In this document: positions 24,254 to 31,206 of the stretch, one piece after another
Numbering within the stretch: position 1 is the first letter of the stretch
Layout: each line of letters starts with the position of its first letter
Origin: Sulfurimonas sp. HSL-3221
Lineage (GTDB): Bacteria; Campylobacterota; Campylobacteria; Campylobacterales; Sulfurimonadaceae
DNA length: 64,000 nt
NCBI RefSeq assembly: GCF_021044585.1
Contig: NZ_CP087998.1
Location: 372,001-436,000, forward strand
Direction of reading: 5' to 3'
Translations under genes and position numbers: made by a program
The notes under the pieces: model-generated
The model's database searches: none
What the model saw: only the letters and a program-made list of their open reading frames with translations
Told to the model about the DNA's origin: nothing

Positions 24254-25525
24254 CTAGCTATGGGCGCGGAGCTTGCCCAGGATCAGCTCGAAATGCTGGA
24301 TCAGGTCGTAATACTCCCGGCGATACGAGAGCGGCACGTCGACTTTCTGGATCTTCTGCAGCGCCTCTTCGAGTTTCATGACCGCTTCGCGCCGCTGTGA
24401 CGCGTCATAGCTGTCCATCTCATCTTCGATCGCGTTGAGCGTTCTGTACCAGCGGTAGATCTTGGAGCGGCTGCGCCACGTCACGAGCGGCAGGAAGAGT
24501 TTCACCAGCGGGATCATCAGGGCGATGACCGGAATGAAAAGCAGCATCAGCCGTTTGATGATCGAGGCGATCCAGAAGGGGAAGAGGCTCTCCAGCCAGC
24601 TTTCGCCGTCGCGCAGATAGACCTCCGCATCGGCGTTGATGGGGAACTCCAGGCGGGCGGTGCCGGGGAACTCGCCCTCTTTGCGGAAGACGCCCGCACC
24701 GCCGTGGACCTTTTGGGCGGCGCGCAGCACCAGCCGGATAAGATCGGGATGGAGATCGTCGCGGCTGACCAGCGTCGCTGTCGCGGCGATGAGATGCTTG
24801 GTCGTTGCGGGGAGGTTGTGTTCAAGGTCCATGACCCCTTCGTCCAGCGTGACGGCATTGAGAAAGGGGTAGCGGACGGTATAAGCGTGGGTCCGGGTGA
24901 AGTCGAGCAGTTTGATCTTCGGATCGAGCAGCAGCGTCTTCGTCAGCGGCGCGAAGGCACCGATGATGCTAAAAAGCGCATCGGCGTCACCGTCAAAAAG
25001 CGCCTGGGCCCCGGCGTCGTTTCCGAGGGAGAGCAAGGTGCTGTTCTCCGGTGTGATGCCGTTCGCCCCGAGCAGCGTGAGCGCGAGGGCCTTCGTCCCG
25101 CTCCCCTCGTCGCCGACGGCAATGCGTTTGCCTTTGAGCTCGCTCAGGTTGTGCAGTTCTCCAGCGGCGGCGGAGTAGTAGACCCATATCGGTTCGTTGT
25201 ACAGGCTGGCGAGGGAGGTGAAGGGCTCGCTTTTGAACGCATCGGTGCTGCCGCTCTGCACAAAAGCGATGTCGACCTTTTTCGCTTTGAGCAGCCCCAG
25301 CGCCTCCACCGAACCGTGTGTGGGAACGATCTCGACCGTGACATGCTGTTTGGCCAGCAGCGCCTTGTAGCGCAGCGCGCTTTGGAAGTAGATGCCCTCT
25401 TCGGTGCCGGTGGCAATGGTGACGTGGTCGGGGGCCAGCGGCGGGAGGAAACGGCTGCCGACATAGAGCAGCCCCAGGAAGAGGGCGAGTATGGGCAGAA
25501 TGATCTTGCAGAGATGACACTTCAT
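24254..25525 (-). CDS. Membrane-tethered TAXI-family solute receptor
   Basis: A 423-residue protein related to the TAXI solute-binding proteins of TRAP transporters. Order: an N-terminal membrane anchor (about 5-25), a periplasmic TAXI domain (about 35-310, beginning VTIATGTEEGIYFQSA and including VDIAFVQSGSTDAF and GKRIAVGDEGSGT), two closely spaced membrane helices (about 320-360) and a cytoplasmic tail of about 60 residues with a coiled-coil look. No TRAP permease gene is adjacent. I chose the ATG at 25525, which gives the signal-anchor start MKCHLCK. A longer in-frame reading upstream crosses the divergent gene's promoter. Confidence 0.85.
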   Translation of the reverse strand: MKCHLCKIILPILALFLGLLYVGSRFLPPLAPDHVTIATGTEEGIYFQSALRYKALLAKQHVTVEIVPTHGSVEALGLLKAKKVDIAFVQSGSTDAFKSEPFTSLASLYNEPIWVYYSAAAGELHNLSELKGKRIAVGDEGSGTKALALTLLGANGITPENSTLLSLGNDAGAQALFDGDADALFSIIGAFAPLTKTLLLDPKIKLLDFTRTHAYTVRYPFLNAVTLDEGVMDLEHNLPATTKHLIAATATLVSRDDLHPDLIRLVLRAAQKVHGGAGVFRKEGEFPGTARLEFPINADAEVYLRDGESWLESLFPFWIASIIKRLMLLFIPVIALMIPLVKLFLPLVTWRSRSKIYRWYRTLNAIEDEMDSYDASQRREAVMKLEEALQKIQKVDVPLSYRREYYDLIQHFELILGKLRAHS

Positions 25526-25530
25526 GACGC

Positions 25531-25537
25531 TATAATA
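25531..25537. promoter_or_regulatory. Overlapping divergent -10 boxes
   Basis: TATAATA reads as TATAAT on the plus strand (25531-25536, for the gene at 25560) and TATTAT on the minus strand (25532-25537, ending six bases before the TAXI ATG). Only about 34 bases separate the two start codons, so the two promoters probably compete. Confidence 0.45.
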
Positions 25538-25559
25538 ACGAAAAAAGCGAAGCGGAACG

Positions 25560-26492
25560 ATGACACGTGTTGTGCTGGCCGTCTTGATGCTGTGCCGTGT
25601 CCTGTGGGGCGCGGATACGCCCGAAGAGGCGGCAAAGAAAGCGTACCTTGCCAACATCAACGCCCTGATGGTCTTTACGACCAAGGACGGGCTCAACTCC
25701 GGGACCTATGAGTTTACCCGGGCCAATACGAGCATGTACATCATCCACCTCCCGCTGCGCTACCAGTTTGAACCTTTCGCCCCGGACCTGAACGCCTTCG
25801 TGATCGGCGGGGTGGGGTACAGCGAAACCAAGCTGACCAACGACGTCAATACGTCGACACCGCTCTCCGGCGATATTGCGCTGAGCGCGACGAACATGCT
25901 GCGCACCTACACGGGCGGGATCGGCGGGGGGCTGCGCTACCGGCCGGGGCTGGGATTCGAGATGCTCGGCGGGGTCGAGGCGATTTACTCCCGCGTCGGC
26001 GTCAGCGCCCGCGACAATAACGGCGCAGGCGACAGTGTCGGTGACCTGTTTAAAGAGAGCTACAACGCCAACATCTCCTACCGCGTTTTTTTTGCGCTGG
26101 AGTACCGGCGTGAATGGAAAGGGTATAAACCCTACGCGACACTGACCTACGACCTCTATGAGACCAAAAGCGCCATCAGTACCAAGCAGCTGAGCAAGTT
26201 TACCACCCAGACGAACGTCACCTCCTTTTCCATCGGCGGTGAAACGGCGGCGCTGGCGAACTACGACGGAATGTACCTGACGCTGGAGGGGTACCTGCGC
26301 GGCAGTTACCTGGGGGGTGACATTACACGCGTGACGCACTTCGACGGCTACGGTACGCTCGGGGGGGTCGGCTACTGGTACGTCAGCGAGGCGATGAACT
26401 ATATCGAGCGCTTTTTCCTCGAAGTGAGTACGATCCAGGCCGACGGGCTCCGGGGATATAACATCGGACTGGGGTTTACGCTGGATTATTAG
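25560..26492 (+). CDS. Outer membrane beta-barrel protein, unknown function
   Basis: A 310-residue protein with a signal peptide (cleavage likely after LWGA) and a mature part made of alternating aromatic and polar strands separated by Gly-rich turns. It ends ...GLGFTLDY, the aromatic C-terminus that the BAM machinery recognises. Segments such as YEFTRANTSMYIIHLPLRYQFEP and GYKPYATLTYDLYETKS look like barrel strands and hairpins. No enzyme motif is seen. It is transcribed divergently from the TAXI gene and ends two bases before the stop of the large peptidase-barrel gene, which converges on it. Confidence 0.75.
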   Translation: MTRVVLAVLMLCRVLWGADTPEEAAKKAYLANINALMVFTTKDGLNSGTYEFTRANTSMYIIHLPLRYQFEPFAPDLNAFVIGGVGYSETKLTNDVNTSTPLSGDIALSATNMLRTYTGGIGGGLRYRPGLGFEMLGGVEAIYSRVGVSARDNNGAGDSVGDLFKESYNANISYRVFFALEYRREWKGYKPYATLTYDLYETKSAISTKQLSKFTTQTNVTSFSIGGETAALANYDGMYLTLEGYLRGSYLGGDITRVTHFDGYGTLGGVGYWYVSEAMNYIERFFLEVSTIQADGLRGYNIGLGFTLDY

Positions 26493-26493
26493 G

Positions 26494-29190
26494 TCAGTAG
26501 GCGATGCCCACGCTGAAGCGGACACTGTGGCGGTCCGAGGCCAGCGGGGAGTCGCTGTAATAGTAGTCCACGGTGATGGGCAGCGGGAGTTTGTTGAACC
26601 AGAGCGTGTCAAGCGTCAACCCCGCCGAGGTCTCGGAGGTGTAGAGGTGCGGGCTTGAGGGGTTAAAGGGTTCGAGGTCATAGTAGGCGTACCCGGCGCG
26701 CAGGGCCTCGCGGCGGAGCGAGACGGGGAAGGTGAAGAAGTACGCGGAGAGGTTGAACACCTTGCGCAGCTCCGCATCGGCTTTGAGCGCGCTTTTGGCA
26801 TACGTCGTGTCGCGTAGGGTCGGCATAATGACCGTCGAGGGGTCGTTCTCTTTGAGCTTGTCGGCGATGCCCGTCGCGAGTTTGACCCCCCGGGCGTCCA
26901 AACCGGTGTCGGCGTCGCTCTGCGAGTACTGCCCGCCCAGGGCGAGATAGAACTCGTGGCTCAGGTCGCGTTCCAACGCCGCTTCCCCGCCCCAAGCAGT
27001 GTCCCCCCGGTCGAAGGCGGTATAGGGGGTCAAAGCGTAAAAGGCGTTGCGGTACATGCTGACACCGTACTGCTCACTGCGTGCCAGGGGAAGGGAGAGG
27101 GAGATAGGGGTCCGGGTGTCCGCTTCGTAGTCCTGGTAGTAGGCGGCCCTCAGCGCGCCGTACGCGTAGCCGCGCTGCCAAAAGGGGAGCTCCGCTTCCG
27201 CCGAGAAGCCGAAAGGACGGGGAGAGGGTTCGGTGGCATTGCGCTCGGGGGCGTCGATGACACCGTAGGCAGTCACGGCGAACTGCAGGAGGTACTCGCT
27301 GTTGGCGTAGCGCATCCCGCCGAGTGTGTATTCATCGACATTCCGGGTGACGAACGCGGAGAGGAGGTTACGCGTCAGCGGGTCGGCGAAGTTGAGGGAG
27401 AGGTCAAAGAGCACGCCCGCGTCGCTGTCGCTGCCCAGAGCGACGTCCGTGCCGCTGTAGTGCAGCTCAAGGGGCGAGTGGTAGGGGTGTTCGAGGTCGA
27501 GAGCCTCCGCCGATGCATTCGTTTCCGGAGGCTTCTCCCCCGCGTGCTCGAAGAAGAGGGTGACCTCGTAGGGTGTCTCGTCGATCGTTTCGAGGGGTAT
27601 CTTTTGGTAGGTATAGGCATCCGCGCCCATCACGGCCGCCAGGGCATGGGTATCGTCGATGAGGCGCGCCTCGAAGATGGTGTCGGCGGGATGCGCCCGC
27701 GTGATTTTGCCGTTATCGTAGCGGAACAGTCCGGAACCGTGCGGCGTATTGGCAATGAAGTAGACGCGGCCGCGGCCGTCGACGCCGCTGACGTTCCCGT
27801 AGTAGCCCCGGAGGGAGAAGAGCGGGGTTTTGTTCCTGTAGAGGGTGCGCGTTTTGCCTTCGCCCTGCACGAAGTAGTAGAGGTTGTCCCCGCCGTCGAT
27901 AAAGACGGAGGAGTTGGTGCGGGCATAAAAGCTGTCGCCGACATAGAGCTGCGGCTGGTCGAAGGAGGCGGGCACGTCGAAGTAGACGGGGGTGCCGTCG
28001 CGGAGGTACCCTTCGATGACGCGGCCGGCCGTGCCGTCAACGAGGTGGGCACCTTCCGTATAGAGTCCGGCCTCGATGCGCAGCGGAGAGGTGTAGGCGC
28101 TGCTCTGGGTCGCGTAGCGTCCTTCGGGGGTTCTGACGACTTTTCCGGCGCGGTAGCTGCCGCTTTCCCGGCTGAGCCTGCCGCTTTTTTTGTCGTAGAC
28201 GACCAGCTCGGGGAAGCTTCTGCCGGTCGCGTTGACGGTGAAGTAGACGGCATCGTTGTCGCTGTTGATCGATGTGTAGAACTGGGTGGCGGCTAGGGGC
28301 TTTCCTTCAACATCCTGCATCGCTTCCGCTTCCGATGCCATCTTGTCCGCCCAGGTCTGCAGGGCCGTTTCAAAATCGTATCCGATGCTGCGCCTTGTCG
28401 TGCGATTCGTGAAGAAGGGCCAGAACCAGTTATACGAATGCAGCCGCCAGTAGGCGTTGACATCTGCCATCCCGAAGGTACTGGCCAGGTCGTACTGGTA
28501 AAACCCCCCGAGGGTGTAGAAATGCGAGCCGTAGAGGAAGTCGTAATTGGCATTGTAGACCCGTTCGGGCGTCAGGAGACCCGCCTTTGCCTGCTGCAGG
28601 GTCGCGGCCTTGAACCGGCCGCTGTAGAGCCGTCCCCCGTTGCCGTGCCAGGATTCGTTAAGAACGGCATTTCCTTCGAGCAGAAAGCTGCTTTCAACGA
28701 TGTTGGGCAGGGTGAACCAGGGCAGCAGGACGAAGCCGTTGCCGAAGACGGTGTGCAGCGTGCTGGAGACGGGGTTGTCCTTGACGTTCATCTGATAGTT
28801 ATGCGCGCTTTCGTGGTAGAGCAGGGTGTTCAGCCAGGAGGTCGTGCTGAAATAGTCGATCATCAGCGCCCCGCCGCCGTAGTTGATCTGGCGGTTGAGG
28901 GGATAGGGGGTGGAGAAGCCGTTGGCGATCTGGTTGTGGCTGGAGAGCAGGCCGACATAGAGCGTCTCGTCCATCGTGTAGCCGTAGAGTTTGTCATACT
29001 GCGGCAGCAGGACGTTCTCGACCGCGGCTGCTTCCCGGGCAACGGGGAGGTTCCCCTCCGTATAGATCAGTTCGCAGCCGCCGATATCGGCCGTGAAGTA
29101 GGGCACGTCGCAGGGGACGGTACTGCTTTGCAGGAGCGCTGCGTGCAGGCCAAGGGCGGGGAGTAACAGAAGGGATGCCAAACGAACCAT
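26494..29190 (-). CDS. HEXXH metallopeptidase domain fused to an outer-membrane barrel
   Basis: An 898-residue exported protein. After the signal peptide comes a gluzincin-like domain (Peptidase MA type). The zinc motif HESAH is at 126-130, with a downstream Glu172 in LLEGNAVLNES that fits the third ligand, and a helical region ending in ETALQTWADKM (about 277-287). Residues about 300-540 have repeated short beta blocks that look like a six- or seven-bladed propeller (TolB/PD40 type). From about 570 the sequence is barrel-like and ends ...RFSVGIAY. It is probably a surface-exposed or periplasm-facing protease anchored by its own barrel. Substrate unknown. Confidence 0.75.
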   Translation of the reverse strand: MVRLASLLLLPALGLHAALLQSSTVPCDVPYFTADIGGCELIYTEGNLPVAREAAAVENVLLPQYDKLYGYTMDETLYVGLLSSHNQIANGFSTPYPLNRQINYGGGALMIDYFSTTSWLNTLLYHESAHNYQMNVKDNPVSSTLHTVFGNGFVLLPWFTLPNIVESSFLLEGNAVLNESWHGNGGRLYSGRFKAATLQQAKAGLLTPERVYNANYDFLYGSHFYTLGGFYQYDLASTFGMADVNAYWRLHSYNWFWPFFTNRTTRRSIGYDFETALQTWADKMASEAEAMQDVEGKPLAATQFYTSINSDNDAVYFTVNATGRSFPELVVYDKKSGRLSRESGSYRAGKVVRTPEGRYATQSSAYTSPLRIEAGLYTEGAHLVDGTAGRVIEGYLRDGTPVYFDVPASFDQPQLYVGDSFYARTNSSVFIDGGDNLYYFVQGEGKTRTLYRNKTPLFSLRGYYGNVSGVDGRGRVYFIANTPHGSGLFRYDNGKITRAHPADTIFEARLIDDTHALAAVMGADAYTYQKIPLETIDETPYEVTLFFEHAGEKPPETNASAEALDLEHPYHSPLELHYSGTDVALGSDSDAGVLFDLSLNFADPLTRNLLSAFVTRNVDEYTLGGMRYANSEYLLQFAVTAYGVIDAPERNATEPSPRPFGFSAEAELPFWQRGYAYGALRAAYYQDYEADTRTPISLSLPLARSEQYGVSMYRNAFYALTPYTAFDRGDTAWGGEAALERDLSHEFYLALGGQYSQSDADTGLDARGVKLATGIADKLKENDPSTVIMPTLRDTTYAKSALKADAELRKVFNLSAYFFTFPVSLRREALRAGYAYYDLEPFNPSSPHLYTSETSAGLTLDTLWFNKLPLPITVDYYYSDSPLASDRHSVRFSVGIAY

Positions 29191-29266
29191 GCGGAAAAAC
29201 CTCGGGGGAGTTGCAACATTATAGTGCCTGATCTGTTACAAATCAACCGGGTTCAGTCCCGATGGG

Positions 29267-30054: not shown

Positions 30055-31206
30055 ATGGGACGGGTGTTGCTGGGACTGCTCCTGCTCTGTCTGGGGGCAA
30101 TGGCGGAGAGCCAGTTCGAGACGGGGATGGAGCATTACCGTCAGGGAGACTACCCCACAGCGTTCGAGATTTTCAAGGCCGCGTACGAGGCGACAGAGGA
30201 TGAAGACGCGGCCTACATGCTTGCCAGGATGTACGAAAAAGGGGAGGGGGTCGACGCCGACCGCGCCAAGGCGGACAGATGGTACCGCCGTTCGGCGCGG
30301 CGCTACTTCGAGGCGGCGGCAGACTCCTCACTGCACCGGGAGAACAAACGGCTGCTTTCGACCTACCGCGAACTCGACCCGGTCGAGGACAACGAGACCG
30401 CCGAGACGATCCGCAAAAGCATCATTGCCGATTTCGGCCTGAAGACCTTTCACGAGAACTACCTGCTTCCTTTCGGATACCGTGAAGGCGTGTATGACAG
30501 CTATGTGCCTTCGGACCATTACAAGAACATCGAAGCGGAACTGCAGTTGAGCTTCCGCCTCGACTTCCTTCCCAACCTATTCGGCCTGAACGAGACCTAT
30601 TCGGCTGCCTACACCCAGCGCTCTTTCTGGCAGGTCTATGCCGGCTCTGCGCCCTTCCGGGAGACGAACTACCAGCCCGAACTCTTTGTCACCTTTCCGA
30701 CGGCGTCGCACAAAGTGCCGATCAAGTCGGTCGCAGTCGGGTTTGCCCACCAGTCCAACGGACAGGGGAACATTACCCAGCAGGACCTCGGCGATATCAA
30801 CGTCAGCAACCCCGGTGCCCTTACCCCCTATCTGCGCAACCGTTCGCGTTCGTGGAACTACGCCTGGACGGAGGCCGTTTTCCAGACGGGCAGCCTCTTT
30901 ACGGCGCTGAAGTTCTGGTACCGTTTCAAAGAGAGCGAAGAGGATGACAACCCGGACCTGACCGATTACCTTGGGTACGGCTCGGTGCGCCTGGTACTGC
31001 CCTACGGTAAAAGCATGACAAGTCTTCTGCTGCGGCACAATTTCGTGACGGGCAAGGGAGCGCAGCAGCTGATCTGGACCTATCCGCTCTCGCACCGCGA
31101 GAACGTCTTCTGGTGTCTGAAAGCCTTCACCGGCTACGGCGAGAGCCTTATCGACTACAACAACTACGTGACGAAGTTTTCGATCGGGTTCAGCTTTTCG
31201 CGCTAG
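30055..31206 (+). CDS. pldA: Outer membrane phospholipase A with N-terminal Sel1-like repeat
   Basis: An outer-membrane lipase that cleaves phospholipids in the outer leaflet. The catalytic centre is recognisable as His232 and Ser234 in AHQSNG and Asn268 in SRSWNYA. The gap between Ser and Asn is about 22 residues longer than in E. coli. The barrel strands before it (YTQRSFWQVYAGSAPFRETNYQPELF) are typical. Residues about 19-105 are an extra helical domain with a Sel1/TPR motif (YMLARMYEKGEGVDADRAK). The C-terminus ends FSIGFSFSR. It starts 4 bases after the rlmB stop, in the same operon. Confidence 0.9.
   Translation: MGRVLLGLLLLCLGAMAESQFETGMEHYRQGDYPTAFEIFKAAYEATEDEDAAYMLARMYEKGEGVDADRAKADRWYRRSARRYFEAAADSSLHRENKRLLSTYRELDPVEDNETAETIRKSIIADFGLKTFHENYLLPFGYREGVYDSYVPSDHYKNIEAELQLSFRLDFLPNLFGLNETYSAAYTQRSFWQVYAGSAPFRETNYQPELFVTFPTASHKVPIKSVAVGFAHQSNGQGNITQQDLGDINVSNPGALTPYLRNRSRSWNYAWTEAVFQTGSLFTALKFWYRFKESEEDDNPDLTDYLGYGSVRLVLPYGKSMTSLLLRHNFVTGKGAQQLIWTYPLSHRENVFWCLKAFTGYGESLIDYNNYVTKFSIGFSFSR

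Follow-up and report, generated by a model that had tools for sequence, protein, structure and literature searches.

A predicted zinc-peptidase-like domain, beta-propeller and Omp85-like barrel in a single protein of Sulfurimonas sp. HSL-3221

The gene and its surroundings

We analysed a window of 64,000 nucleotides from Sulfurimonas sp. HSL-3221, a marine-type member of the Campylobacterota. An open reading frame on its minus strand (26494..29190) begins with an ATG at 29190 and ends with a stop codon at 26494-26496, and encodes a protein of 898 amino acids, here called P0001. These limits are exactly those given in the initial annotation of the window. The frame is supported over its whole length by the full-chain model described below and by intact homologues at 28-95% identity.

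A Shine-Dalgarno-like GAGG (29200..29203, minus strand) can be read 9 nt 5′ of the ATG. Directly upstream lies a promoter-like TTGATT-17-TATAAT (29218..29246, minus strand), identified by consensus match only; one such site was found 5′ of the gene where 0.1 was expected. Residues 1-20 (29131..29190, minus strand) look like a Sec signal peptide and contain no lipobox; residues 1-22 are of low confidence in the full-chain model.

The upstream neighbour, a SpoU methyltransferase gene starting at 29262, is divergent, and the downstream neighbour, ending at 26492, is convergent. The gene is therefore probably transcribed alone. The convergent neighbour (25560-26492, plus strand) is a 310-amino-acid frame with no Pfam match, outer-membrane-barrel-like in appearance, that ends 2 bases from the P0001 stop codon. 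Two further genes were noted nearby. One, at 30055-31206 (plus strand), encodes an outer-membrane phospholipase A (PLA1, E 1.1e-68) whose N terminus is extended by a region with a Sel1-like repeat; this is a second barrel enzyme to which a helical-repeat domain is fused. The other, at 24254-25696 (minus strand), encodes a solute-binding protein of NMT1_3 (TAXI-like) type with an additional C-terminal membrane and cytoplasmic-looking region.

No conserved gene neighbours were found for the P0001 family, the flanking genes differing from lineage to lineage, and no connection with envelope stress genes emerged. That P0001 is an orphan gene is well supported, and its functional reading consequently rests on the anatomy of the protein.

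A peptidase-like domain, a propeller and a barrel

Searches of Pfam, NCBIfam and PDB sequences with P0001 gave chance-level matches only. TIGR03071 (E 0.07) and CusS (E 0.0023 in 6 of the 24 members) were dismissed as noise inconsistent with the fold. An AlphaFold2 model of the full chain, built from 24 sequences (pLDDT 85, pTM 0.87), consists of a helical domain followed by a beta-propeller (residues 297-532) and a 16-stranded barrel (residues 577-894). The order zinc-peptidase-like domain, propeller, outer-membrane barrel within a single chain is well supported. The initial annotation had proposed an MA-like peptidase, a propeller and a barrel, and both homology and modelling bear this out. 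The result that would have refuted the proposal did not appear in the model: a barrel makes up the C-terminal half, the HESAH motif lies on a helix and Glu172 on a second helix.

The peptidase MA-like domain spans residues 23-295 (28306..29124, minus strand) and was delimited by alignment, model, profile matches and structure matches. HESAH occupies residues 126-130 (28801..28815, minus strand) on helix 119-134, and E172 (28675..28677, minus strand), the proposed third zinc ligand, lies in LEGNAVLNES on helix 168-181; the initial annotation had numbered E172 correctly. In the 24-sequence alignment, whose members are 40-52% identical to P0001, the columns of H126, E127, H130 and E172 are invariant, and all four positions are also kept in family members at 28-30% identity. 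HExxH with a downstream EGN was present in 49 of 50 full-length members, and the one exception (L018) has HESAH...LEGH, still retaining the Glu. A chance occurrence of HExxH was ruled out by this invariance. In the model, P0001 thus shows the arrangement of clan MA(E), or gluzincins, a conserved HExxH on one helix and a conserved downstream Glu on a second.

Known peptidase families were not recovered directly. Peptidase_MA_2 (PF13485) gave no match to P0001 even at E 10 and none elsewhere in the genome, and M48 (PF01435) gave none to P0001 at E 10. When the N-terminal domain was predicted alone the model was worse than that of the full chain (pLDDT 61), and its structure matches were therefore used as supporting evidence only. 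They are weak singly (Z no higher than 6.8, Foldseek E of at least 0.4) and none is significant alone; nearly all are gluzincins of families M1, M9 and M61.

A close parallel was found in a set of uncharacterised gammaproteobacterial proteins (L074-L111) with HEYTH, PD40 and Omp85 regions, which share all three domains of P0001 in the same order, at a comparable length (about 940 amino acids). The N-domain profile of the P0001 family matched these HExxH proteins at 99.9% (E 1.8e-31, hhalign), with HExxH aligned on HExxH and E172 on the Glu of their EG(L/I)A. In the reciprocal comparison the gammaproteobacterial profile recovered the campylobacterotan family at E 1e-28 to 1e-31. The full-length profiles are collinear (16-894 against 17-948), and propeller-only and barrel-only comparisons were not significant (30% and 1% probability). 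Weak matches to Peptidase_MA_2, the best at 7e-5 and none reaching the Pfam cut-off, were obtained with some of the gammaproteobacterial relatives. Taken together, the invariant motif, its placement on helices, the reciprocal profile matches and the weak Peptidase_MA_2 and gluzincin matches argue for a zinc peptidase domain of clan MA, with predicted activity, at the N terminus of P0001.

The propeller (residues 297-532, 27595..28302, minus strand) has about 21 strands in the model, likely arranged in 5-6 blades, and has a Foldseek match to the propeller SMP30. It is seen in the model only, no PD40 or WD40 repeats being matched in P0001 by Pfam. The same region of the gammaproteobacterial relatives has a PD40 match in 19 of 26 proteins and matches TolB structures by sequence, with E values down to 1.6e-19.

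The barrel (residues 577-898, 26497..27462, minus strand) ends in an aromatic Tyr, and its predicted fold is well supported by the model, by structure matches and by comparison within the family. The best VIA-align matches are BamA, FhaC, CdiB and TamA (Z 18-20), with porins at about 15. A 37-residue loop (residues 759-795, 26806..26916, minus strand), identified from model and alignment and carrying RGVK at 767-770, connects strands 11 and 12, where Omp85 proteins have their loop L6. The predicted model thus has both the 16 strands and the long strand 11-12 loop of Omp85. The canonical RGY/F of L6 is absent from the family, most members having RGV or RGI, and the RG itself is incomplete in L039, L049, L051 and L052. 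P0001 has no match to PF01103 (Omp85) and no POTRA domain, for which the model leaves no room, only about 44 residues separating propeller and barrel. By comparison, 5 of the 26 gammaproteobacterial relatives match Pfam Omp85 (E <0.01), and these relatives have a canonical LRGY in L6 and a recognisable PD40, whereas the P0001 family has neither. Because the family has no Pfam match, POTRA or canonical RGY/F, we describe its barrel, which most resembles those of Omp85 proteins, as Omp85-like and not as an established Omp85 barrel. Hydrophobic alternation of the barrel strands was 2.25, against 1.36 for shuffled sequences (0/2000). Alternation is as strong in the propeller strands (2.57) and was therefore dropped as proof of a membrane barrel.

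The best-known roles of Omp85-type barrels are in membrane building and protein transport. P0001 might be a translocase or insertase with built-in processing, in which the barrel inserts or exports a client, the propeller delivers it and the peptidase trims it. The strand count, the strand 11-12 loop and the general activity of Omp85 barrels in inserting or translocating proteins agree with this, as does the likening of the WD40-Omp85 subfamily to a BamA-BamB fusion in the survey of Heinz and Lithgow (PMC4104836). The missing POTRA, the degenerate L6 motif (RGV for RGY/F) and the lack of a conserved adjoining client gene argue against it. In addition, the genome holds a separate canonical BamA-like Omp85 (a 762-amino-acid frame), so that P0001 is not its only Omp85-like protein. 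We regard the processing translocase as the main alternative to the reading proposed below, and as unlikely.

Distribution and selection

Homologues of P0001 were found in 27 of 60 nearby genomes, and in only 12 of 298 when the sample was spread evenly over the class. The distribution in Campylobacterota is patchy. In the genome_contigs collection 26 loci carried relatives, Aliivibrio and Catenovulum among them; viral contigs and plasmids had none. In a tree rooted by midpoint only, the Aliivibrio and Catenovulum copies (L045, L048-L051) nest inside the campylobacterotan copies (enclosing fork 99/98); their exact sister group is weakly supported (86/55). This position suggests transfer of the gene from Campylobacterota to marine gammaproteobacteria. 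One Helicobacteraceae genome carries two tandem peptidase-barrel gene copies (L043, 323-3106 and 3216-6056). Copies interrupted by stop codons, either decayed genes or assembly errors, were seen at L119 (G905) and G003:C81.

The ratio dN/dS between P0001 and its counterparts in three congeners was 0.11-0.12 over the gene and lowest, 0 to 0.06, in residues 115-200, around HExxH..E; purifying selection on the gene is well supported. Overall, P0001 is a genuine and conserved protein, as yet uncharacterised, and represents a divergent form of an architecture already known.

These values also bear on whether the HExxH-containing domain has become a non-catalytic module for binding or scaffolding. 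Three relatives from Vibrionales (L078, L079 and L080) have HEYSY in place of HExxH, so that the second His is lost, and retain LLEG(V/M)A and the IRGY loop; judged on these residues they are probable pseudo-peptidases. Such relatives imply that the three-domain architecture can be maintained after the canonical metal site is lost, which counts against a peptidase reading of P0001. Within the P0001 family itself the four metal and catalytic positions are invariant and are kept at 28-30% identity, and dN/dS reaches its minimum around them. A pseudo-peptidase is therefore very improbable here.

Topology and proposed function

Since the number of barrel strands is even, both ends of the barrel lie on the same side of the membrane. 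In outer-membrane barrels short turns face inside and long, variable loops face outside. Among 38 family members, the connections after even strands, on the side of the termini, have a mean length of 5.3 residues and no length variation, while the distal loops after odd strands are variable in length with a mean of 11.1 residues. Short, invariant turns on one side and long, variable loops on the other predict periplasmic termini. The propeller and peptidase domain, which connect to strand 1, would therefore most likely be on the periplasmic side of the outer membrane, neither secreted nor displayed on the surface.

This placement agrees with the 2024 reinterpretation of PlpD, whose enzyme domain is exclusively periplasmic (PMC11116518), and speaks against delivery of the P0001 peptidase to the surface. 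For such delivery the barrel would have to carry the N-terminal part of its own chain through the outer membrane, in the manner originally envisaged for type Vd autotransporters. The union of an enzyme and an Omp85-like barrel in one chain does resemble the original description of PlpD (cited in PMC4104836), and the sporadic distribution and the transfer to marine gammaproteobacteria would suit an enzyme of nutrient scavenging or competition. Against this, the asymmetry of loops and turns indicates periplasmic termini, a folded region of about 550 residues would need to be moved through a barrel of 16 strands that has a long L6-like loop, and the same model has been overturned for PlpD itself (PMC11116518). 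A surface-displayed or secreted peptidase is thus less likely than the processing translocase. The initial annotation had the protein placing a peptidase at the outer membrane without a separate secretion system. This is only partly right. The barrel is the probable anchor; the predicted topology is periplasmic and would be reached by Sec and barrel assembly, and surface display or secretion is unlikely.

P0001 can be compared with three known systems. PlpD, the type Vd patatin-Omp85 protein of Pseudomonas aeruginosa, likewise has an N-terminal enzyme, periplasmic in location, on a 16-stranded Omp85 barrel (PMC11116518). It differs in being a patatin-like lipase with a POTRA domain and no propeller, whereas P0001 is peptidase-like; P0001 has no patatin match, and its model no room for a POTRA. 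BepA, YcaL and LoiP, zinc peptidases of family M48, are located at the periplasmic face of the outer membrane and are associated with outer-membrane proteins (PMC13067283); P0001 resembles them in predicted location and chemistry. Those enzymes are separate soluble proteins or lipoproteins with no barrel or propeller in the chain, and BepA docks on BAM, whereas P0001 carries its own barrel and has no M48 match. In the third comparison, one family name needs care: PF00149 is, we take it, the calcineurin-like phosphoesterase family. Heinz and Lithgow (2014) divide Omp85/TpsB proteins into ten subfamilies and accept ones without POTRA, WD40-Omp85 among them; their 'Metallo' group, called metalloproteases, is defined in the sections concerned by PF00149, and its label may be a misnomer (PMC4104836). 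The architecture of P0001 falls within a recognised kind, that of Omp85-type barrels with non-POTRA N-terminal domains, including WD40-Omp85 (PMC4104836). As the subfamily is described there, P0001 is like it in having a propeller N-terminal to an Omp85-type barrel and no POTRA (PMC4104836), and the TolB-like propeller in the gammaproteobacterial relatives agrees with that description too. P0001 differs in that the part of the survey describing the subfamily does not mention an HExxH peptidase domain (PMC4104836), and in having no detectable PD40 or Omp85 Pfam match. No report of activity for the peptidase-propeller-barrel architecture was found in the literature searched.

We propose that P0001 is an outer-membrane-anchored periplasmic zinc peptidase, most likely serving envelope protein quality control or maturation, with a probability of roughly 0.55. 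Judging by its signal-like N terminus, the protein would be exported by Sec, and the C-terminal 16-stranded Omp85-like barrel would then be inserted into the outer membrane. From this barrel the propeller and the gluzincin-like domain with HExxH...E would hang into the periplasm, a topology favoured by the loop statistics. There the propeller would probably select or hold substrate polypeptides, and the peptidase, if it binds zinc as predicted, would cut them, most likely in quality control or maturation of envelope or outer-membrane proteins. Such a protein would act as an independently anchored BepA or YcaL, with its own anchor and its own propeller in the chain. A bolder version seems to us quite improbable. 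In it a client taken up by the propeller would be trimmed or degraded by the peptidase below the membrane, and the resulting product would be inserted or exported by the barrel; if true, this would unite the jobs of BamA, BamB and BepA in a single polypeptide.

A conserved and, by prediction, apparently active peptidase on the periplasmic side of an Omp85-type barrel would amount to a built-in outer-membrane protease. Such a protease would be of use in studying the clearance of stalled or damaged outer-membrane proteins in bacteria whose BepA-type systems have received little attention.
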